Part shown: positions 3,028 through 16,616 of the stretch, piece by piece | Position numbering within the stretch: position 1 is the stretch's first letter | How the letters are laid out: every line of letters starts with the position of its first letter | IMG/VR virus record: IMGVR_UViG_3300020027_000033 | Location: 1-22,054 of that record | DNA from: a virus | Direction: 5' to 3' (one strand) | Length of the DNA stretch: 22,054 bases | Program-made: the position numbers and the translations under genes | Notes under the pieces: generated by a model | The model's database searches: none | What the model saw: only the letters and a program-made list of their open reading frames with translations | Told to the model about the DNA's origin: nothing

Positions 3028-3675
3028 ATGGTTGAACATCACTGCGAAGAGTGCGGCGCGATCGTAGGGCCGATGGGTCATTCTAAGACAACGTGCCTCA
3101 AACTCATCGAAGAAATCAAACAATTCGAAGCACACAAGAATGCTGTTTTAAGCTCGGGAGCGTTGTATCGCTTACAACCGACAGACTTCGAGCTTCGCGA
3201 CACGAGTGACCCAATCGTTGGAAAACCAACTGGTGAAGCAAAATTCGAATACATCGCGGATGTTTCCGACGTTGGGAAAACGACTGGCGAAGCGAAAATG
3301 GAAGACGTTTACATCGCGGATGTGTCCGACGCCAAAATGCGCGTGGGCCAACCGGGAAACTTTCTCGGCGTTATACTGAAGATGTTCGAGGGTCGCGCGA
3401 CGCCGTGGAGTCAATATCTCAATCGGGTGGCCTTGGCTATCACGCCGCACGCCAAGGACATCTTGGTCGTCCCTGCCGCTGATCAAGGCTTCGCCGATCG
3501 CGCGGGTCTTCCCACGGACAATGAGGTCTACTATGTAGTATTCGTGACCCCAGAGGTCGTGCGCATCGCAGTCAGAGCGCGAAAGTATCTTGCGGCTGAA
3601 GAACTCGCGGCGGTATGCACGCACATCTCCATCGATGTTCTCAAGTGTCCCGGTCTCCACGTAAGGCTGCAGTAA
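3028..3675 (+). CDS. Hypothetical protein with Cys motif and internal tandem duplication, 215 aa
   Basis: The ATG at 3028 is chosen because GGGAG (3015-3019) sits 8 nt before it; an ATG at 3010 and a longer frame from 2983 lack this. Residues 6-23 contain C6-x2-C9, H18 and C23, a possible small zinc knuckle. The middle carries two adjacent copies of a VGK-TGEAK-...-YIADVSD unit (3217-3270 and 3271-3330; 18 and 20 residues). The C-terminal part is ordinary globular sequence with hydrophobic strands such as DILVVPA and VYYVVFVT. No family is recognised. It is followed by a TAATG overlap with the next gene. Confidence 0.65.
   Translation: MVEHHCEECGAIVGPMGHSKTTCLKLIEEIKQFEAHKNAVLSSGALYRLQPTDFELRDTSDPIVGKPTGEAKFEYIADVSDVGKTTGEAKMEDVYIADVSDAKMRVGQPGNFLGVILKMFEGRATPWSQYLNRVALAITPHAKDILVVPAADQGFADRAGLPTDNEVYYVVFVTPEVVRIAVRARKYLAAEELAAVCTHISIDVLKCPGLHVRLQ
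3217..3330 (+). repeat. In-frame coding tandem duplication
   Basis: Two adjacent units, 3217-3270 (54 nt) and 3271-3330 (60 nt), encode nearly the same peptide around TGEAK and IADVSD. The second copy has two extra codons, and many third positions differ between copies, so the duplication is not very recent. Confidence 0.75.
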
Positions 3676-3815
3676 TGGCTAGCAAATTCTGGAACGAGAA
3701 GGAATACCGGCGCGATTGGCTCAACGCGAACCTTGGGCCGTTTGTGGTCTTCTGCGGTGCCCTCGGCTATCTCGTTGGGATGCTCGCTTGGAGCGTATTG
3801 TTGACTTGGTTCTGA
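3675..3815 (+). CDS. Small single-span membrane protein, 46 aa
   Basis: The start ATG overlaps the upstream stop (TAATG at 3673-3677), which indicates translational coupling. The first 20 residues are charged (MASKFWNEKEYRRDWLNANL). They are followed by one hydrophobic stretch of about 25 residues (GPFVVFCGALGYLVGMLAW and on) to the C-terminus, ending LLTWF. This predicts an N-in, single-span inner-membrane miniprotein. The function is unknown. Holin is possible in principle, but the position far from any lysis gene does not favour it. Confidence 0.6.
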   Translation: MASKFWNEKEYRRDWLNANLGPFVVFCGALGYLVGMLAWSVLLTWF

Positions 3816-3817
3816 CC

Positions 3818-4009
3818 ATGATCACTAGACGACAGCTTTTCATGACTCTCCTTTTTGGTCCGTTGGCTACACGAGTCGCGCCAGAAATCATGACTTTACA
3901 CCTGGATAGAACGCAGGATCCATGGATTCGAGGCATTCATCGTGTTGGCTACCAAGAATACACGGTGCACCGTTTCGACTGTCAGTTATCGAAATCGGAC
4001 GGGGCATAA
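3818..4009 (+). CDS. Small hypothetical protein with signal-like N-terminus, 63 aa
   Basis: The ATG at 3818 lies 2 nt after the preceding stop. The N-terminus MITRRQLFMTLLFGPLATRV has a twin-arginine pair followed by a hydrophobic run, resembling a short Tat-type or Sec signal, or a membrane anchor. The remainder (about 40 residues) is polar with one Cys and has no recognised domain. Longer frame extensions upstream overlap the previous gene in another frame and are not favoured. The small size and lack of a family keep the confidence moderate. Confidence 0.5.
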   Translation: MITRRQLFMTLLFGPLATRVAPEIMTLHLDRTQDPWIRGIHRVGYQEYTVHRFDCQLSKSDGA

Positions 4010-4012
4010 ATC

Positions 4013-4252
4013 ATGGTAGAACAAGTGCTATTTGACAACCAGAGCGACACCCATCGACTGGTAGTCGTTCGAAAGACCAGCGATACCGCTGAGTGGCAAT
4101 TCATTCGTCTCAAGGACAACAAAGTCATCGAAACGCAAGTTGTTCCTCTGCACGCGTCCGGCCCGAACCTTGCTTGGAACGCTGATGACGCGGGCCTTTG
4201 GTGCACGATGGCAATGAAGGCAGAACAGAAAGACCTGAAAGAACACGCGTAA
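4013..4252 (+). CDS. Small hypothetical protein, 79 aa
   Basis: It starts at the ATG at 4013, 3 nt after the upstream stop, behind a G-rich stretch (GGGG at 4000-4003). The sequence has alternating strand-like segments (HRLVVVRKT, EWQFIRLKD, KVIETQVVPL) and a charged C-terminus, suggesting a small beta-rich soluble protein. No motif or family is recognised. It is the last full-length member of the small-gene run before the terminase. Confidence 0.6.
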   Translation: MVEQVLFDNQSDTHRLVVVRKTSDTAEWQFIRLKDNKVIETQVVPLHASGPNLAWNADDAGLWCTMAMKAEQKDLKEHA

Positions 4253-4255
4253 CCT

Positions 4256-4351
4256 GTGCAGAACGAACGGTTCAAAGCTGTGCCGTGCGACGTATGTCAC
4301 GGTAGCGGTGATTCGGATCGTCCATGGCAGACACCGACCTCTGGGACCTGA
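4256..4351 (+). CDS. Possible 31-aa Cys-motif miniprotein overlapping the terminase start
   Basis: A GTG at 4256, 3 nt after the previous stop, opens a 31-codon frame containing PCDVCHGSGD (residues 10-19). This is the CxxCxGxG signature of zinc-binding DnaJ-like and small phage zinc proteins. The frame runs 28 nt into the large terminase gene in another frame and stops at 4351. It fills what would otherwise be the only gap in this tightly packed cluster. With only two Cys it could bind metal only as a dimer or with other ligands. There is no strong Shine-Dalgarno site. It may be a remnant. Confidence 0.35.
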   Translation: MQNERFKAVPCDVCHGSGDSDRPWQTPTSGT

Positions 4352-5985
4352 TACCAGACCCAGAACGACCCGTCATAATCAATCACGACGTTCCAGCGCA
4401 AGCTGTCACCCCACCGACCGGTATCCAAGCTCTCGTTGCAGAACACGAATTACTCCAGCATATCCAGGATGAAATTGACCGCCGCCGGCTAGAGAAGGTC
4501 GAAGCCGAACGGTGCAAGCGTCATCTCCTGGATTTCGTGCGGAAATGCTGGCATATTGTCGAGGAGATGCACGAATTCCAGACCAATTGGCACATTGAGG
4601 AACTGTGCAAATATCTGGAAGGAGTGACACGCGGCGAGAACCCGCGACGCACCATTATTAATGTGCCGCCAGGCACGATGAAGACATTGCTTGTCCAGGT
4701 CTTTTGGCCGGCCTGGGAATGGGCAACCAATCCGCGACTCCGCTATCTCACCGCTTCATACAGTGAAGACCGGACCATCGATGCCAACACGATGGTGCGC
4801 AATATCGTCACTTCCGAGTGGTATCAGACGCACTTCCCGGGAACCGTTCTCAAAGAAGACCAGAACCAGAAACGACGGTTTGACACGACGGCTGGCGGAT
4901 GGCGCATTGCTACGGCCGTGCGTGGTCTCGGCACGGGACTCCACCCGGATCGTGTGCTCATAGACGACCCGACCACCGCCGAGCAAGCCCTCTCTGACGT
5001 CGTTAGGCCGGCGACCAACAAGTGGTTTGACCGCACCATTTCGATGCGCGGCGCGAGTCGTAGATGCATCGTCATCCTCATTATGCAGCGACTGCATGAG
5101 GATGATATGACCGGTCACTTGCTCCCGCGCAGGAATTGGGAGCATATTTGCTTCCCAATGTATTATGAGACCACGAGGGTAGACGAACCAAATTGGAAGC
5201 CGGACCCGCGTGATCATCGCACCGAACCTGGAGAGATCCTCTGGCCCTCGTTACTCCCCTTGGACATCCTTGAGGAGAAGGAAATCGACCTCGGACCTTA
5301 CGGTGTAGCAGGTCAGTTTCAGCAACGTCCGGCGCCAGAGGGCGGTGGACTCTTTAAGCGTGCATGGTTCAAGTATCTAGACGCGCTACCTCTCACGTTT
5401 GTCAAGGCTGTTCGAGGGTGGGATACGGCTGGCACAGATAACGCTGGGGATTACACCGTTGGCGTGAAGATGTTGGAGTTCGAAAAGGGTTTCATCGTCG
5501 CGGACGTGCAGAGAGACCAACTGGACCCGGATGAAGTGGATAGTTTGATAGAATCCATTGCGGTGACTGACGGCCGAGAATGCGCGATTCGTGAGGAAAA
5601 GGAAGGGGGAGCCTCAGGCGTTGCGGTCATTAAGGCTCGCACACGAATGCTACAGGGCTTTGACTATGAGGGTGTGACCATCGGAAAAGACAAGATTATC
5701 AGGTCGAGACCCTACCGCTCGCAGTGTAAGGCTGGAAACGTGTATCTTCTACGGGCCGATTGGAATGAAGCCTATCTCACGGAATTATGTGGATTTCCAA
5801 CGGCGAGCAAAGACGACCAAGTTGACGGTTCTAGTTGTGCATTCAATGCACTTGTCGGTGACCCGATACCGCAATCAGAGGGGACATGGGGCAGCAAAAA
5901 GCGGCGCGAAGAACGAAGAAAGTGGGCCCGCGCAAGACTCGGGCCAAGACACCAGCGAGTGTTAGAATCCGAGACTTTACAGTGA
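4324..5985 (+). CDS. terL: Terminase large subunit (TerL)
   Basis: This is the DNA-packaging motor that cuts concatemers and pumps DNA through the portal. The ATPase domain shows a Walker A-like VPPGTMKT (114-121), Walker B VLIDDP (211-216) and a coupling motif MQRLHEDD (254-261). The nuclease domain (RNase H fold) shows WDTAG with Asp367, then EEKEGG (424-429), and DDQVD (497-501) with late acidic residues. The 553-aa length is normal for a two-domain TerL. The start ATG at 4324 is the only one after an in-frame stop; its Shine-Dalgarno site is weak, so coupling to upstream genes is likely. The lysine-containing PPGxxKT loop places it with the TIGR01630/terminase_6-type large subunits. Confidence 0.95.
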   Translation: MADTDLWDLIPDPERPVIINHDVPAQAVTPPTGIQALVAEHELLQHIQDEIDRRRLEKVEAERCKRHLLDFVRKCWHIVEEMHEFQTNWHIEELCKYLEGVTRGENPRRTIINVPPGTMKTLLVQVFWPAWEWATNPRLRYLTASYSEDRTIDANTMVRNIVTSEWYQTHFPGTVLKEDQNQKRRFDTTAGGWRIATAVRGLGTGLHPDRVLIDDPTTAEQALSDVVRPATNKWFDRTISMRGASRRCIVILIMQRLHEDDMTGHLLPRRNWEHICFPMYYETTRVDEPNWKPDPRDHRTEPGEILWPSLLPLDILEEKEIDLGPYGVAGQFQQRPAPEGGGLFKRAWFKYLDALPLTFVKAVRGWDTAGTDNAGDYTVGVKMLEFEKGFIVADVQRDQLDPDEVDSLIESIAVTDGRECAIREEKEGGASGVAVIKARTRMLQGFDYEGVTIGKDKIIRSRPYRSQCKAGNVYLLRADWNEAYLTELCGFPTASKDDQVDGSSCAFNALVGDPIPQSEGTWGSKKRREERRKWARARLGPRHQRVLESETLQ

Positions 5986-8174: not shown

Positions 8175-9078
8175 GCATCCGGTTAGGCACGTTGCAGACA
8201 CGTATACGGGCCGAACGCGCATGGTATTCATGCGAGCGTTCAGTGCAGGGAAGCGAAAGATGAGTCTAGCAAAGCTTACATCGGCATTCGCGTCCCATGA
8301 CCGTGCGGTCCTGGAACAGAGTGTCGATCGGGCTTTGTTGACCATTGAGAATGAGCTTTCGGAGACCGCGCCTCCGCTGCTGTTCAACATTCTGACGGCC
8401 GCTGGACGCGCCACGGCTTCGACGTTCCGGAAACCTAAGAAAGCTGTGGATTTGAGTGCGGCGAAGAGCAAACCGTCCATTCATTTTAGCAATACGAATC
8501 CGCAAGCTATCGCGTGGGCACGGACACAATCGGCGCAGTTGGTGACGGATATCACCAATGAAACCCGGTCGTCGATCCAAGAGATCATGGCTCGTTCTTT
8601 CTCAGAGAAGTTTCCGCCGGCGCAATCCGCGCGACTCCTTCGAGAGGTTGTGAGTTTGAACTTGCGCCAGGCAAAGGCTCTGGCAAATTTTCAAGTTGCT
8701 GTAGTGAACAATCCGGGCAAGATCGTGCAGGCCGGATCACTCCGCATTCGCGTTCCGGAAGGTGGGATGTCGAAAGCGAAGTTGGACAGTTACATGATGC
8801 GCTACGCGGAGAAGCTGCAGCGCAATCGGGCGATGATGATCGCGCGCACAGAAACGATGGGCGCGGCAAACGAGGGCCAACGTCAACTCTGGCTGCAGGC
8901 CCGCGACAACGGATTGCTGACGGGCAAGGAACGGCGCGTGTGGATTGCAGGCGATCCATGCGATGATTGTCGACCGTTCGAAGACATGACGGCTCCGTTG
9001 ACGTCACCGTTCCAGGGTGGACCAATGAATCCGCCACTGCATCCGATGTGCCGTTGCACGACGGGATTAGTGTTGTAA
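8167..9078 (+). CDS. Head morphogenesis protein (Mu gpF / SPP1 gp7-like)
   Basis: This is a minor head protein associated with the portal and ejected DNA. The C-terminal third has the family signature: MMIARTETMGAANEGQ, a VWIAGDPCDDC segment (C265, C268), and the terminal PPLHPMCRC (289-297) whose Cys/His may bind metal. A TTG start at 8167 sits 8 nt after GAGGAAG and overlaps the portal stop; an ATG at 8221 is the alternative, giving a product 18 residues shorter. The N-terminal part is helical and basic. It follows the portal directly, the usual order. The stop overlaps the next start (TAATG). Confidence 0.88.
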   Translation: MPKHPVRHVADTYTGRTRMVFMRAFSAGKRKMSLAKLTSAFASHDRAVLEQSVDRALLTIENELSETAPPLLFNILTAAGRATASTFRKPKKAVDLSAAKSKPSIHFSNTNPQAIAWARTQSAQLVTDITNETRSSIQEIMARSFSEKFPPAQSARLLREVVSLNLRQAKALANFQVAVVNNPGKIVQAGSLRIRVPEGGMSKAKLDSYMMRYAEKLQRNRAMMIARTETMGAANEGQRQLWLQARDNGLLTGKERRVWIAGDPCDDCRPFEDMTAPLTSPFQGGPMNPPLHPMCRCTTGLVL

Positions 9079-10700
9079 TGGCCGCCGAAGCTCGCAATTT
9101 CCTACTGACCTTGTCGGGATCGGGACTCCGATCTGCGATGTATGAAGGCAAGAGCCATTTGGTGGTTCCTGTCGTCATGATGGTCGAAGGGGTTGTCTGG
9201 GCCGTGAACTCTCCGGCACCAGAACTCGTGGAGGAAGACGAGCTAATCAAGGCGTTCAAGGGTTGGAATGGTCGGCCGGTCATGGGAGAGCATCCCCAAC
9301 GTGACGGGCAGATGATTTCAGCCAATGAGCCCTCAGTCCTAGAGCAGCACGCGTTCGGTATCGTGTTCAACGCTTACGTCAAGAACAAGAAACTTGCCGG
9401 CGAAGCTTGGATTGATGCGCTCAAGGCTGGAAAGACTGAAGTTGGACGCGCGGTGCTTGAACGTCTGAACAACGGGAAGATGGTTGAGATTTCTGTGGGC
9501 GCGTTCATACAAATCGAACATGTCGCGGGAGATTTCAACGGACAAAAATACGAAGGTCGGTGGACGGAGATCGTTCCTGACCATCTCGCATTCTTGCCCA
9601 ACGACATCGGAGCATGCAGTATCGAGGCCGGTTGTGGAGCACCGCGCACGGCCGCTCATCACCATCGTCTTACTGAACAAGGAATTGAAATCATGGCCGA
9701 AACAGCAGCGACGGGTGACGCGCCCAAGACTCCGGTGGTTGTTCCGACGTGGAAAGAGCGGATTGCTGCTCTTCTCAAGTTTCGCTCCAACAAGACCGAA
9801 GAGGTCAGCGTCAATGAGCTCTGGGGTGCCCTCGGGGATGCGTTGCGTGCTGTAGAACCGGGATACCTCGGCATCGAAGATGTGATCCTTGGCGCGTCAC
9901 AGGTTATCTACGCGGTGGATCCCGGAACGTTCGGGATTTTCATGCGCGACTACACCATGGCCGATGGGACCGTGTCGCTCGGTAAGGGCAAGACGGAAGT
10001 TCAGCCCGTTCGGGTCTGGGAACCGGTGGCTGCGCAGGGTGCGCCGGCCACTCCACGTGGCGCCTGCGGTTGTGGCGCCTCTACATCAACACAAGTCACA
10101 GCCGCTGAAGGAGACACGAAAATGGCGAAGGCAAAGAAAGAGATTGTGGACGGTCTGATCGCGAACACGGCCACGCCGTGGGTGGAAACCGATCGGTCGT
10201 TCTTGGAAGGGCTCGATGACGCCCGACTGACCGCATTCGAGGCGCAGGTCAAGCCCGCTGCCACGACGGAGACGGCGCAGCCGGTCGCACAGCCTGCCGC
10301 CGCTGCGGCCGCGACAACGCAGCCGGTGGCGCAGACGACGCAGACCGTGGTGGCGCTGACCACGGAGCAATATATCGCGCAGGCTCCGGTCGAATTGCAG
10401 GAGACGTTGCGTGAGGGACTCCGGGCGTCGCAGGCGGCGCGAACCAAGGCCGTCACTTCGCTGAAGGATTCCAAGCGCTGCGCGTTCACCGACGCGGAGT
10501 TGGCCGCGATGCCGATGGAGCATCTCAATCGGATGGTCACGTTGCTCGGCGCGCCCGCGCGGACGGGTCCGACCGTGGTGGACTTCTCCACGCGCAACAC
10601 GACTGCGGCTGCGGCCGGTTCGGAAGAGGAAACCGGCGCACCGGAACCGATCGACCTCGCGGGCAACATTCGCGCGGCGGCACTCGCTGCCAAGAAGTAA
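9078..10700 (+). CDS. DUF2213 protein, likely prohead protease-scaffold fusion, 540 aa
   Basis: The start ATG at 9078 overlaps the upstream stop (TAATG); a longer frame from 8967 would overlap the head protein and is not favoured. Residues 1-200 match DUF2213, with VPVVMMVEGVVWAVN and WNGRPVMGEHP (63-73) and later VEISVGAF. In phage neighbourhoods this family occupies the prohead-protease position. Residues about 206-320 form a second module (ELWGALGDALRAVEPGYLG), followed by a Cys-rich turn CGCG (330-333). Residues 349-540 are Ala/Thr/Gln-rich and charged, like a scaffold. Strong in-frame internal starts at 9693 and 10122 suggest shorter products from the same frame. Protease activity is inferred; no catalytic triad can be assigned by eye. 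Confidence 0.85.
   Translation: MAAEARNFLLTLSGSGLRSAMYEGKSHLVVPVVMMVEGVVWAVNSPAPELVEEDELIKAFKGWNGRPVMGEHPQRDGQMISANEPSVLEQHAFGIVFNAYVKNKKLAGEAWIDALKAGKTEVGRAVLERLNNGKMVEISVGAFIQIEHVAGDFNGQKYEGRWTEIVPDHLAFLPNDIGACSIEAGCGAPRTAAHHHRLTEQGIEIMAETAATGDAPKTPVVVPTWKERIAALLKFRSNKTEEVSVNELWGALGDALRAVEPGYLGIEDVILGASQVIYAVDPGTFGIFMRDYTMADGTVSLGKGKTEVQPVRVWEPVAAQGAPATPRGACGCGASTSTQVTAAEGDTKMAKAKKEIVDGLIANTATPWVETDRSFLEGLDDARLTAFEAQVKPAATTETAQPVAQPAAAAAATTQPVAQTTQTVVALTTEQYIAQAPVELQETLREGLRASQAARTKAVTSLKDSKRCAFTDAELAAMPMEHLNRMVTLLGAPARTGPTVVDFSTRNTTAAAAGSEEETGAPEPIDLAGNIRAAALAAKK
9679..9695 (+). promoter_or_regulatory. Possible internal ribosome-binding site and start (ATG 9693)
   Basis: AAGGA (9679-9683) precedes an in-frame ATG at 9693 by 9 nt, within the context GAAATCATGGCC. 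Many real starts in this genome also read ATCATG (3028, 4013, 10738, 11787). It falls exactly at the end of the DUF2213 domain (residue 206), so it would give a 335-aa product lacking that domain. Use of this start is inferred. Confidence 0.35.
10122..10700 (+). CDS. Nested in-frame scaffold protein, 192 aa (internal start)
   Basis: Inside the DUF2213 gene and in the same frame, GAAGGAGA (10107-10114) lies 7 nt before an ATG at 10122. The context GGAGACACGAAAATGGC closely resembles the start of the very next gene (GAGGACACGAATCATGGC at 10738). The product begins MAKAKKEIVDGLIANTATP, then has an Ala/Gln/Thr-rich linker, a helical segment (EQYIAQAPVELQETLREGL), a DAELAAMPMEHLNRMVTLLG region and a basic/Ala C-terminus. 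This composition is typical of capsid scaffolds, which template procapsid assembly and are removed later. Lambda C/Nu3 uses the same nested plan. Codon use is noticeably GC-rich, like the other capsid genes. Confidence 0.65.
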   Translation: MAKAKKEIVDGLIANTATPWVETDRSFLEGLDDARLTAFEAQVKPAATTETAQPVAQPAAAAAATTQPVAQTTQTVVALTTEQYIAQAPVELQETLREGLRASQAARTKAVTSLKDSKRCAFTDAELAAMPMEHLNRMVTLLGAPARTGPTVVDFSTRNTTAAAAGSEEETGAPEPIDLAGNIRAAALAAKK

Positions 10701-10737: not shown

Positions 10738-11253
10738 ATGGCAACGAGTCTCGCATCGCGGTTGGATGTCAACTTCTCCTTCGTGGAGAAGAATCCACAG
10801 GACCTGGGCGCATCCGAAATGAAATCGGCTGTCGCCTATGCCAAGAAACTGCTGGACGGCATCTCATCCGGTCAGGCCGACAAGATTGTCGGCGATACGG
10901 TCACGCTCGCGGACGGAGGCAATGTCAGCATCGATCTCGCCGGTTCGCTGACCGATCTGCTCACCGGCGCGTTGGTCACCTTGGCCAAGGTCAAGATGGT
11001 CTTGGTGGTCAGCAAGGAAAACAACACCACGCGTTTGACCATCAGCCGACCGGCGTCCAATGGTGCGCCGTTGTTCGGCGCGGCGAGTGGCGCGCTGGCG
11101 TCTCTCGGCGCGGATGGGGTGTTTCTGGCGTTCGATCCCGGCGTTGCTGGGTTGTTCACCGTGGTCGCGGCCACCGGCGATTTGCTCAACTTCGCCAATT
11201 CGGCGGGCGCGGTCGCCACCTTCACTTACGTCGTTGTCGGCACCAGCGCGTAA
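10738..11253 (+). CDS. Putative virion structural protein (head fibre/decoration-like), 171 aa
   Basis: The start ATG at 10738 is preceded by AGAGGACACG. An N-terminal helical region (EMKSAVAYAKKLLDGI) is followed by Gly/Ala/Val-rich beta-like sequence. The C-terminus contains FDPGVAGLFTVVAATGDLL and NSAGAVATFTYVVVG, a pattern I associate with small head or capsid-surface proteins between scaffold and capsid genes. It has no membrane or enzymatic motifs. Its position between the scaffold and a second small capsid-associated protein, and its GC-rich codon use, suggest a moderately abundant virion component. The exact role is not established. Confidence 0.6.
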   Translation: MATSLASRLDVNFSFVEKNPQDLGASEMKSAVAYAKKLLDGISSGQADKIVGDTVTLADGGNVSIDLAGSLTDLLTGALVTLAKVKMVLVVSKENNTTRLTISRPASNGAPLFGAASGALASLGADGVFLAFDPGVAGLFTVVAATGDLLNFANSAGAVATFTYVVVGTSA

Positions 11254-11301: not shown

Positions 11302-11736
11302 ATGGCAACGCGTCCCATCAAGCTGTTGGGTGAGCCCATCCAGAACGAGGATGACAAGGCGGCCGACGGCACCATTCTTCCTGGTCATTTGCTGGCCTAC
11401 AATGGCGGAGGCAATCTGATCCGCCATGCGACGGCCGGCGGCAAGGCTCAGAAGAAATTCGCCATGGAACGTGAGGAAGCTGGCCAGGGCAGCGACGTTC
11501 TGTATGCCACAGGCGACATCGTCAAGGTTGGCGTGTTTGCCACTGGCGATCGCGTCAATGCGTTGGTTGCGGCCGCTGCCGCCGCTATCGTCAAGGGAGA
11601 CAGGCTGACATCGGCCGGCGACGGAACGCTGAAGAAGTCCAACGGGACAACCGACAACGAGATCGCGGTCGCGTCGGTGGCCCTCGACAATTCCGCCGGT
11701 GCGTCTGCCGCGCGGTTGGATGCGGAAATTCTGTAA
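11302..11736 (+). CDS. Capsid decoration (head-stabilising) protein candidate, 144 aa
   Basis: AGGAGA precedes the ATG at 11302 at good spacing. The product contains a GDIVKVGVFATGDRVNALVA segment, then KGDRLTSAGDGTLKK and a C-terminal VASVALDNSAGASAARL. The 'GDxLxSxGDGTLxK' pattern is common in small head proteins encoded just before the major capsid gene, which cement or decorate the shell from outside. The gene immediately precedes the major capsid protein. Codon use is GC-rich, consistent with high expression. Lambda gpD-like function is an inference from position and pattern. Confidence 0.7.
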   Translation: MATRPIKLLGEPIQNEDDKAADGTILPGHLLAYNGGGNLIRHATAGGKAQKKFAMEREEAGQGSDVLYATGDIVKVGVFATGDRVNALVAAAAAAIVKGDRLTSAGDGTLKKSNGTTDNEIAVASVALDNSAGASAARLDAEIL

Positions 11737-11786: not shown

Positions 11787-12863
11787 ATGTCAGATTTCGC
11801 AAGCATCGACACCGGCCGCTCGATCATGGGCGGTGGCGGTGGAAAGTGGGCTGGCGAACAGTTCATGCGCGCAATGGCGATGAATAAACCCATCGCAACG
11901 TCGTTGCTGCGCACCAATGAACTGTTGCGCCGGGACGAGTGGAAGGTGTTGGATCAGGCGCTAGTGACAGCATATCAAACCCGCATTCGCGCGGTTGCCG
12001 ACGTGCTCGCGGCCGGTCTCACCCATCCGATCGCCAACGGCCTCGGCAAGACCATCCTCGAATGGGAGAAGATGGGCGACATGATGGGTGCTGACGTTTC
12101 TCTGGACGGCATCACCCGCACGGAAAACGACCGGTTGGACTTCGGATGGTCCGGTCTGCCATTGCCCATCACCCACAAGGATTGGTATCTGAATCTGCGC
12201 ATGCTCGCGGCGTCCCGCGAACGTGGCGAAGCCATCGATACCACCTACAGCCGGGTGGCGGGTCGCAAGATCGCCGAGGCATCGGAAGAAATCCTCATTC
12301 GTGGCGGTATCACCACGATGCGCGGGTTCAAGACCCTGAAGTTCATGGGTCTGAATGTCTACGGCTACACCACGTATCCCGACCGCAACGCCATCACGTT
12401 CGGTGACGCGACGGGCGTGGGCGTGGTCACGTCGATTCCGTGGGGCGATGCGACCAAGACCGGCGACGGTATCTTGGCGGACGTCAAGCGTCTGATCGCT
12501 GCGGCCGAGGGTGATCGCAAGTTCGGGCCTTACATCATCTACGTGGGTGGCACGGCGGCATCGCTCAAGCTCGCGTCGGACTACAAGGCCGCGACATCCA
12601 CCACGATTCGCCAGCGCATTCTGGACTTGGAGCAGATCTCCGACATCCGCACGCTCGACATGCTGCCGGTGAACGAGGTGTTGCTCATCGAGATGTCCAG
12701 CGACACTATCGAGATGGTCATCGGCGAACCGCTGCAGACCGTGCAGTGGGACGTCCATGGCGGATTCCAGATCAACTTCAAGGGCTTCCAGATCGTGGTG
12801 CCTCTGATTCGGTCGGACTCCGAAGGTCGCTGCGGCATCGTGCACATGACGGTGGCTCCGTAA
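11787..12863 (+). CDS. Major capsid protein, HK97 fold, encapsulin-like
   Basis: The ATG at 11787 follows AGGGAG at 7 nt; an upstream TTG at 11772 is rejected. Residues 51-75 (EWKVLDQALVTAYQTRIRAV) and 124-140 (LPLPITHKDWYLNLRML), then GEAIDTTYSRVAGRKIAEASEE, match the encapsulin/Linocin-M18 pattern: a PLP-x-x-x-KD strand followed by the long spine helix. The C-terminal part (YIIYVGGTAAS, VIGEPLQTVQWDVHGGFQ, FQIVVPLI) fits the A-domain and closing strands. The 358-residue length is right for a phage capsid subunit. It lies after the scaffold and decoration genes. A 9-bp hairpin follows the stop. The N-terminus is Gly-rich (GGGGGK, 15-20). Confidence 0.88.
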   Translation: MSDFASIDTGRSIMGGGGGKWAGEQFMRAMAMNKPIATSLLRTNELLRRDEWKVLDQALVTAYQTRIRAVADVLAAGLTHPIANGLGKTILEWEKMGDMMGADVSLDGITRTENDRLDFGWSGLPLPITHKDWYLNLRMLAASRERGEAIDTTYSRVAGRKIAEASEEILIRGGITTMRGFKTLKFMGLNVYGYTTYPDRNAITFGDATGVGVVTSIPWGDATKTGDGILADVKRLIAAAEGDRKFGPYIIYVGGTAASLKLASDYKAATSTTIRQRILDLEQISDIRTLDMLPVNEVLLIEMSSDTIEMVIGEPLQTVQWDVHGGFQINFKGFQIVVPLIRSDSEGRCGIVHMTVAP

Positions 12864-15502: not shown

Positions 15503-16267
15503 GTGAAACTCCGTCGAATTCACATACCGGAGTGGGGTGGGTCGGTCTTTCTCCGACTCCTCTCCGGTATGGAATTGACGGAGTATCTGGATTCGTTAGA
15601 GGAGAATCCAGACAAAACTGGCGTCCGGTTACTTTCATTGATTCTGTGCGACGACACAGGAAAATTGATTGTAAAACCGGGAAGTCAGTTAGACCTTGGA
15701 CGGAAAGACAAGAAAGTCATCGCGCGGCTTGCAGATGCAGCCGCAGAATTTCACGGTCTTACCAAAGAAGCGGTTCAGGCAGCACGTAAGTATCTGCAGT
15801 CGTCGAGGGTCAAATTCCAATTCCGTCTTGCGATGTCCATGGGGATGACGCGACGAGAGTTGCTGAATCGAATCGACGCTGAAGAACTACTCCACTGGGA
15901 TCTGCTGGAAAGCATGGACCCTTACGGTCAACGGCGTGGGGATTACCAGACAGCCTATCTTGTTCAGACGATAGTCAACGTGAATCGCGGTCAGAAAACG
16001 GCCGCTACGAAGTTGGACGATTGTCTGTTGAAATTCCGTAGCGCAGAAGAGGAGCAAAAGAAACAAACAGCTGAAGAGATGGAGCGGTTGATCAGGCAAA
16101 GTGTTGCCCGGCACAATGCTCGATGGAAGAGAATGCACGGCAATAAGACCGAAGAGGAAGTTGAAGCAGAGGAGCAAACACGTGGAACTCGAAGAAAAGC
16201 CCGACCAGAGCCCGAACCCAAGCGAAAACAGAGATCTGCTCGTTCCCGAAAAGATCCTGACCGCTGA
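15503..16267 (+). CDS. Tail assembly chaperone, fused G/T-like, 254 aa
   Basis: It starts with the ATG-like reading at 15503 just after the tail-tube stop. Residues 6-13 are IHIPEWGG, opening a chaperone N-domain. Residues about 110-175 contain MGMTRRELLNRIDAEELLHW and LESMDPYGQRRGDYQTAYLV, which resemble the second-domain pattern (DUF4035-like) usually reached in phages by a ribosomal frameshift (lambda G to GT). Here both parts are in one frame. The C-terminal about 65 residues are highly charged and overlap the next gene. These chaperones bind the tape measure during tail assembly. The start codon should be checked, since the base context is ambiguous between GTG and ATG readings. Confidence 0.75.
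   Translation: MKLRRIHIPEWGGSVFLRLLSGMELTEYLDSLEENPDKTGVRLLSLILCDDTGKLIVKPGSQLDLGRKDKKVIARLADAAAEFHGLTKEAVQAARKYLQSSRVKFQFRLAMSMGMTRRELLNRIDAEELLHWDLLESMDPYGQRRGDYQTAYLVQTIVNVNRGQKTAATKLDDCLLKFRSAEEEQKKQTAEEMERLIRQSVARHNARWKRMHGNKTEEEVEAEEQTRGTRRKARPEPEPKRKQRSARSRKDPDR
16168..16174 (+). promoter_or_regulatory. Shine-Dalgarno site that decides a GTG start
   Basis: AGAGGAG lies 7 nt before the GTG at 16182, inside the upstream chaperone gene. It supports independent initiation of the second chaperone gene, rather than production by frameshift. Confidence 0.6.
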
Positions 16268-16616
16268 AGATATCCTCGCGGCAGACGATCTCACGACCAA
16301 GAAGATCCATGTCCCCGAATGGGGTGGGACTGTGATCATCCGCACCCTCTCGGCCGAGGGCGCAACTGCATTCGGCACCTATGTCTCCGACCCGAAGAAC
16401 AAGCGCAAGGCCATGCTCTACTTGGTCCGGAATTCCTTGGTGAATCCGGATGGGTCATACGTTTTCACGGAAAAGCAGGCCGAAGCGTTTTCCAAGAAGT
16501 CGGTCAAGGTCTTCGGCATGCTCCAGAAGGAATGCCTGTTGCTCAACGGCTTCGCCGATGAGGAAGACTTCAAGAAAAAGACTGAAGGCCCGCAGGTCGA
16601 GATCGACGCCGCGTAA
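16182..16616 (+). CDS. Second tail assembly chaperone (paralogue), 144 aa
   Basis: A GTG at 16182 follows AGAGGAG at 7 nt and is preferred over the longer frame from 16101. The frame overlaps the upstream gene by 86 nt, in the +1 register. After a charged N-terminal extension of about 38 residues it has KKIHVPEWGGTVIIRTLSAE (40-59), which matches the start of the preceding protein (RRIHIPEWGGSVFLRLLS). The two proteins also share a later 'dp...G...' spacing pattern and a helical end (KVFGMLQKECLLLNGF). This indicates a duplicated chaperone domain. It is placed right before the tape-measure gene, where a second chaperone normally lies. Confidence 0.75.
   Translation: MELEEKPDQSPNPSENRDLLVPEKILTAEDILAADDLTTKKIHVPEWGGTVIIRTLSAEGATAFGTYVSDPKNKRKAMLYLVRNSLVNPDGSYVFTEKQAEAFSKKSVKVFGMLQKECLLLNGFADEEDFKKKTEGPQVEIDAA

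Follow-up and report, generated by a model that had tools for sequence, protein, structure and literature searches.

A putative three-tier protease/scaffold gene with two internal start signals in a tailed-phage head cluster

Overview

The DUF2213 gene of the viral DNA analysed here (an IMG/VR virus record of 22,054 bases, called the window below) is probably a three-tier, 3'-co-terminal protease/scaffold gene, a variant of the phage lambda C/Nu3 and Mu I/Z arrangement. Three proteins would be made in one frame with a common stop, ribosomes beginning at three places. In the full-length product, a prohead protease with the T4 gp21/assemblin fold would occupy the N-terminal part, and the scaffold at the C-terminus would bring it into the procapsid. 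A putative middle form, without the protease, would begin at Met206, and a putative free scaffold at Met349. While nesting of two proteins is known in phages, three tiers made by internal translation starts would be the new element.

A free scaffold is absent from the annotation of phages with a DUF2213 gene. The matching protein family phrog_760 is annotated as of unknown function and DUF2213 is uncharacterised, and in many such phages a single gene probably provides the head protease, the scaffold, and a third form. A literature search, covering papers available without subscription, found no description of a DUF2213 protein with internal starts and none of a three-tier phage gene for protease and scaffold.

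The DUF2213 gene and its neighbours

The head gene cluster of the window includes genes for terminase, portal, Mu F-like head protein, the DUF2213 protein, a phrog_22694 protein, decoration protein, and major capsid protein. The single frame given for the DUF2213 gene in the preliminary description (9078..10700, + strand) is an open ORF encoding 540 aa (57.2 kDa). The protein matches DUF2213 (PF09979) with 26.7 bits against a cut-off of 22 (E 6e-6) and the phrog_760 profile over residues 12-454 (E 6e-28). PF09979 is also matched by 42 of the 44 aligned family members, and an NCBIfam search with the window protein gave no match. Downstream on the + strand, the phrog_22694 gene (10738..11253; function not known) lies between the protease/scaffold gene and the gene for the head decoration protein (phrog_766; 11302..11736). 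This is followed by the major capsid gene (DUF6260, phrog_771; 11787..12863), with ATG 11787 taken as the start.

The full-length ATG overlaps the stop codon of the upstream gene (TAATG, 9076-9080) and has little Shine-Dalgarno (SD) sequence, suggesting reinitiation and a low protease output. In the family as a whole, full-length starts, for which the best candidate in the 45 codons ahead of the protease profile was used, have a median SD energy of -4.2 kcal/mol; 18% of them reach -7.5 or lower, compared with 77% of the next-gene starts.

Elsewhere in the window, a tRNA-Phe (GAA) gene is found at 2442-2516 on the + strand. Two overlapping genes in different frames (15503-16267 and 16101-16616) have a common IH[IV]PEWGG... 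region; they have the appearance of tandem paralogues and lie in the tail region, ahead of the tape measure gene.

Domains and predicted structure

In an AlphaFold2 model built with 44 sequences, the window protein has confident domains at residues about 15-190, 225-307, and 348-391 plus 429-491, with pLDDT > 90 over most of 20-180, 245-310, and 350-390. They are separated by predicted disordered linkers at 192-222 and 320-347, where pLDDT is < 50.

The first part (9120..9647, + strand) is predicted to be the prohead (head maturation) protease domain. Its best Foldseek match is T4 gp21 (5jbl; E 6e-4, probability 1.0), and structural alignment to the same entry by VIA-align gives Z 11.6 and rmsd 3.2 A over 139 residues. 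Herpesvirus proteases come next (Z 6-8). H72, S139, D168, and H169 are invariant across the 44 family members.

The middle domain (9750..9998, + strand) is modelled as helices packed on a four-stranded antiparallel sheet. Sequence searches with it of Pfam, PHROG, and PDB found no relative of weight except phrog_760. Its cystatin/VirB8-like fold matches were not used to assign a function, as their Z of 7.1 or less is within the range of common arrangements.

The third part is predicted to be helical from Met349 onwards, as expected for a scaffold. A weak PDB sequence match of the family to the Pa193 gp24 scaffold (E 0.074) was lost with a slightly different alignment and was set aside.

The internal ATGs had been described as coinciding with domain borders. 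This is exact for residue 349, as a helix starts at 348. Residue 206 is within the disordered first linker, about 19 residues ahead of the first helix of the middle domain (225).

Internal start signals in the window

An exact SD is defined here as one of the 5-mers AAGGA, AGGAG, GGAGG, or GAGGT ending 4-13 nt upstream of a start codon. As first reported, the in-frame ATG at 9693 is codon 206, with AAGGA (9679..9683, + strand) ending 9 nt upstream, and the in-frame ATG at 10122 is codon 349, with GAAGGAGA ending 7 nt upstream (AAGGAG at 10108..10113, + strand). The putative products are the middle domain plus scaffold (9693..10700, + strand; 335 aa, 34.9 kDa) and the mostly helical scaffold (10122..10700, + strand; 192 aa, 20.0 kDa). 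Predicted diagnostic peptides are AETAATGDAPK (Met removed) for the middle form and LTEQGIEIMAETAATGDAPK for the full-length protein.

A properly placed SD 5-mer is present at 20 of the 540 codon positions of the gene (3.7%), and codons 206 and 349 are the only in-frame ATG, GTG, or TTG codons of the whole gene that have one. SD duplex energies are -5.7 kcal/mol for Met206 and -8.8 kcal/mol for Met349. Among all + strand ATGs of the window, 12.5% reach the former value and 0.8% the latter, so that the Met349 SD is exceptional and the Met206 SD moderate.

The start context of gene 10738 is similar to both internal starts. The near-copy of it that had been noticed at 10122 was confirmed: GACACGAA and ATGGC are common to the two sites, with the spacing one base shorter. 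Absent from the preliminary description is AATCATG at the 9693 site, which is common to the starts of genes 10738 and 11787. This motif has six copies in the window, including 4009 (an ORF start), 3024, and 3886. Because 15 of 100 shuffles also reach six copies, its sharing is a weak aid.

These observations bear on a simpler reading, in which the gene gives two products, the full-length protein and the Met349 scaffold, in the style of lambda C/Nu3 and Mu I/Z, and Met206 is a little-used chance match. The moderate SD of Met206, equalled by one in eight window ATGs, is in its favour. However, the gene's sole SD-bearing starts are exactly Met206 and Met349, and the context of Met206 matches that of two neighbouring gene starts. 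With the family evidence given below, we consider this reading rather unlikely.

Conservation of the internal starts among relatives

A single-sequence scan found no close relatives of the window gene. Profile scans of viral contigs gave about 300 related loci, some of which are overlapping pieces of one contig. Profiles were built for the three parts, and 200 genes (none > 70% identical) were retained, 175 of which have the protease and middle parts in the right order. The two linkers were already conspicuous for SD-bearing ATGs in an initial set of 50 genes.

In the protease|middle linker, an ATG with an exact SD is found in 69 of 142 genes, where 22.2 are expected (the largest of 500 permutations is 35). 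In the middle|scaffold linker it is found in 130 of 164 genes, where 28.0 are expected (largest of 500 permutations, 43). When the 12 residues after the protease profile are left out, the first linker has such an ATG in 35 of 109 genes against 14.9 expected (largest null 24). Within the domains of the 175 relatives, exact-SD ATGs number 14 in the protease (32.4 expected), 14 in the middle domain (15.4), and 44 in the scaffold (33.1), the last being a small excess (largest null 50). Their rarity in the protease domain looks as if stray internal starts are selected against.

The same pattern is found when SD energy is used. ATGs at -7.5 or lower are present in the first linker of 56 genes and in the second linker of 109, with 16.8 expected for each, and they are at or below chance within the domains. 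For SD energy, z is -9.6 in the first linker and -23.8 in the second. Both sites have an ATG at -7 or better in 42 of the 175 relatives. The preliminary description had named conservation of both SD sites in relatives as a check; both linkers are enriched far above chance, with the first site patchier (69/142, ATG only). Among the 20 nearest relatives, counting exact SDs with ATG or GTG, the first site is present in 15-16 (5.3 expected) and the second in 15 (4.5 expected). Brevundimonas phage MaInes (host B. pondensis LVF1) carries both sites (AAGGAGG and GGAGA), which would yield a form of 34.4 kDa beginning PKANTTVV... and one of 18.4 kDa beginning STNGGPAGDQ... Being cultured, it is suited to direct tests of the stoichiometry and of the role of the middle domain. 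Three relatives (L039, L017, and L020) have no recognisable middle domain, yet have two SD-bearing internal starts.

The signals could also come from linker composition. One primary product would then be made, the protease would release the scaffold and middle form by cutting within the disordered linkers, and the SD-likeness would reflect a composition rich in Lys, Glu, and Gly. Both linkers are indeed predicted to be disordered, a prohead protease is part of the same protein, and in a synonymous-codon shuffle with the protein fixed the first linker stands out only weakly (z -2.4; equalled in 3 of 400 shuffles). In these same linkers, however, SDs precede ATG and not other codons, so that composition does not explain them, and we regard this explanation as very unlikely. 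In the 175 relatives, neither linker is enriched in TTG with an exact SD, or in CTG and ATT/ATC by SD energy. GTG starts in the first linker are in excess by energy (39 vs 12 expected). This is partly explained by a conserved peptide at the protease end, and the excess falls to 17 vs 12 when the 12 residues past the protease profile are skipped. Therefore GTG is left out of the main claim. Note that the SD core is found in two codon phases among relatives, so no fixed peptide lies behind it.

Natural splits of the gene

Two relatives (L130 and L131) are the only ones in which the scaffold ORF is separate from the protease ORF. In L131, an ORF for protease plus middle domain ends at 3667 and is followed by a separate scaffold gene of 174 residues (3687-4211) behind AAGGAG. 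In L130, the protease ORF stops at 4171 and a second gene has the scaffold, with an internal AAGGAG-ATG. The true gene boundaries of these relatives are at or near the two junctions. In at least one relative, therefore, the scaffold is translated as a separate unit, and the separate gene of L131 lends indirect support to a short scaffold product. L131 has, in addition, two related tail tube-type-like genes (1948-2403 and 4239-4667) flanking the protease and scaffold genes, an odd site for tail genes.

Such splits, with junctions that are real gene borders, could mean that separate protease, middle, and scaffold genes fused recently and left the internal SD-ATGs behind as unused relics. Against the two split relatives, however, stand 69-130 genes with intact SD-ATGs, and relics would be lost since the linkers diverge fast. 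RNA structure around the sites is also low, as it is at real starts: the unpaired probability is 0.525 at the first site and 0.536 at the second, compared with 0.522 at the starts of the next genes and 0.406 at control positions. Together with the avoidance of SD-ATGs within the protease domain, this makes relics extremely improbable.

The two internal sites compared

The scaffold site is the stronger of the two. The synonymous-codon shuffle that finds the first linker weakly unusual finds the second clearly unusual (z -6.0). This shuffle is taken as a conservative bound and not as the main test, because the SD itself shapes the amino acids of the linker. Between related pairs, SD conservation at the second site is 0.89, compared with 0.83 in the flanks, and that of its ATG is 0.99. 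At the first site, SD conservation is 0.69 against 0.72 in the flanks and the ATG is at 0.72, showing no excess. The first site has little phylogenetic signal when ATG only is considered (p 0.054) and some when GTG is counted (p 0.002), and it is gained and lost along the tree. No association between the two sites was found among the relatives (Fisher p 0.49).

The reading with two products draws on this lack of pairwise conservation, and on the absence of the first site in many relatives. It does not account for the large family-wide excess in the first linker (69 vs 22) or for the presence of the site in most of the nearest relatives. We therefore keep the three-tier reading and grade its parts, since the shuffle, the pairwise conservation, and the turnover along the tree weaken the first site. 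Judged from these sequence signals, the scaffold start at Met349 is near-certainly real. The middle start is probable for the family and, in the window, likely rather than certain. The middle form would be dispensable, because about half of the relatives are without a strong first ATG site.

Proposed mechanism

In the three-tier gene, the full-length start should be least used because it has little SD and overlaps the previous stop codon; the middle start would be used at an intermediate level and the scaffold start strongly. From signal strength we infer that scaffolds would be abundant and proteases scarce, with middle forms in between. Coat assembly would be directed by the scaffold. Self-cleavage by the protease and its cutting of the scaffold would follow, plausibly within the disordered linkers, and the fragments would exit ahead of packaging. 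One component of the head (portal, vertex, or capsid lattice) is the probable binding partner of the middle domain, a contact that the middle form would provide without extra protease. The internal SDs argue for translational starts over nested transcripts. It is quite possible, as a more tentative proposal, that such a translational ladder sets procapsid stoichiometry across a widespread group of tailed phages, the middle form being a distinct assembly factor, for example in portal or vertex placement.

Cysteine pairs (CGCG, CSCGG, CCxxC, CxPC) occur near the internal starts, in the window at 10047-10100 (residues about 324-341) and in the linkers of relatives. Of the 175 relatives, 52 have C-x(1,2)-C in the first linker and 65 have it in the second, and the Cys content is 3.4% in the second linker vs 0.3% in the scaffold. 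The pairs may form a metal site or a crosslink.

Comparison with known systems

The DUF2213/phrog_760 proteins of Salmonella and Klebsiella siphophages (e.g., ViII-E1 VIP0015) have the same three parts and an internal scaffold start (GGGGAAATCTCA-ATG), and their genes also adjoin decoration and coat genes. What differs from the window is the first internal start, which this group lacks or has in a weak form.

T4 gp21 has the same protease fold (Z 11.6 over 139 residues). The scaffold of T4 (gp22) is encoded by a separate gene; thus, in contrast to the window gene, it is not fused to the protease gene.

In lambda, the protease C is of the S49/ClpP type and, as in the window protein, has the scaffold as its C-terminal part; the scaffold is also produced from an in-frame start within the protease gene. 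In the window protein, a Pfam search found no Peptidase_S49 domain, DUF2213 being the only match. C/Nu3, which the preliminary description had named as a two-product precedent, is indeed one gene for protease and scaffold (PMC8508860). While lambda has two tiers, the window gene would add a third with a separate middle domain, and its protease has the T4 gp21/assemblin fold.

Another example is Mu I/Z and gene 27 of the Mu-like phage PaMx73, where translation of the scaffold begins in frame inside the protease gene, about 8-9 nt downstream of an SD (PMC4378225). The window gene likewise has an in-frame, co-terminal scaffold start with its own SD (ATG 10122, -8.8 kcal/mol), as found in 130 of 164 relatives. 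The Mu-like genes differ in having two tiers; no self-starting middle module is described there (PMC4378225).

In logic, the window gene appears to resemble herpesvirus UL80. HCMV UL80 has four nested in-frame co-terminal products made from nested transcripts, as Welch 1991 is cited in PMC9732275. In HCMV UL80/UL80.5 and herpes UL26/UL26.5, as in the window gene, an assemblin-fold protease is fused to a scaffold and the products are nested in frame. The difference is that nested transcripts are used in UL80 and not internal ribosome binding sites. The window gene would therefore be a translation-made, multi-tier phage counterpart of the UL80 nested family.
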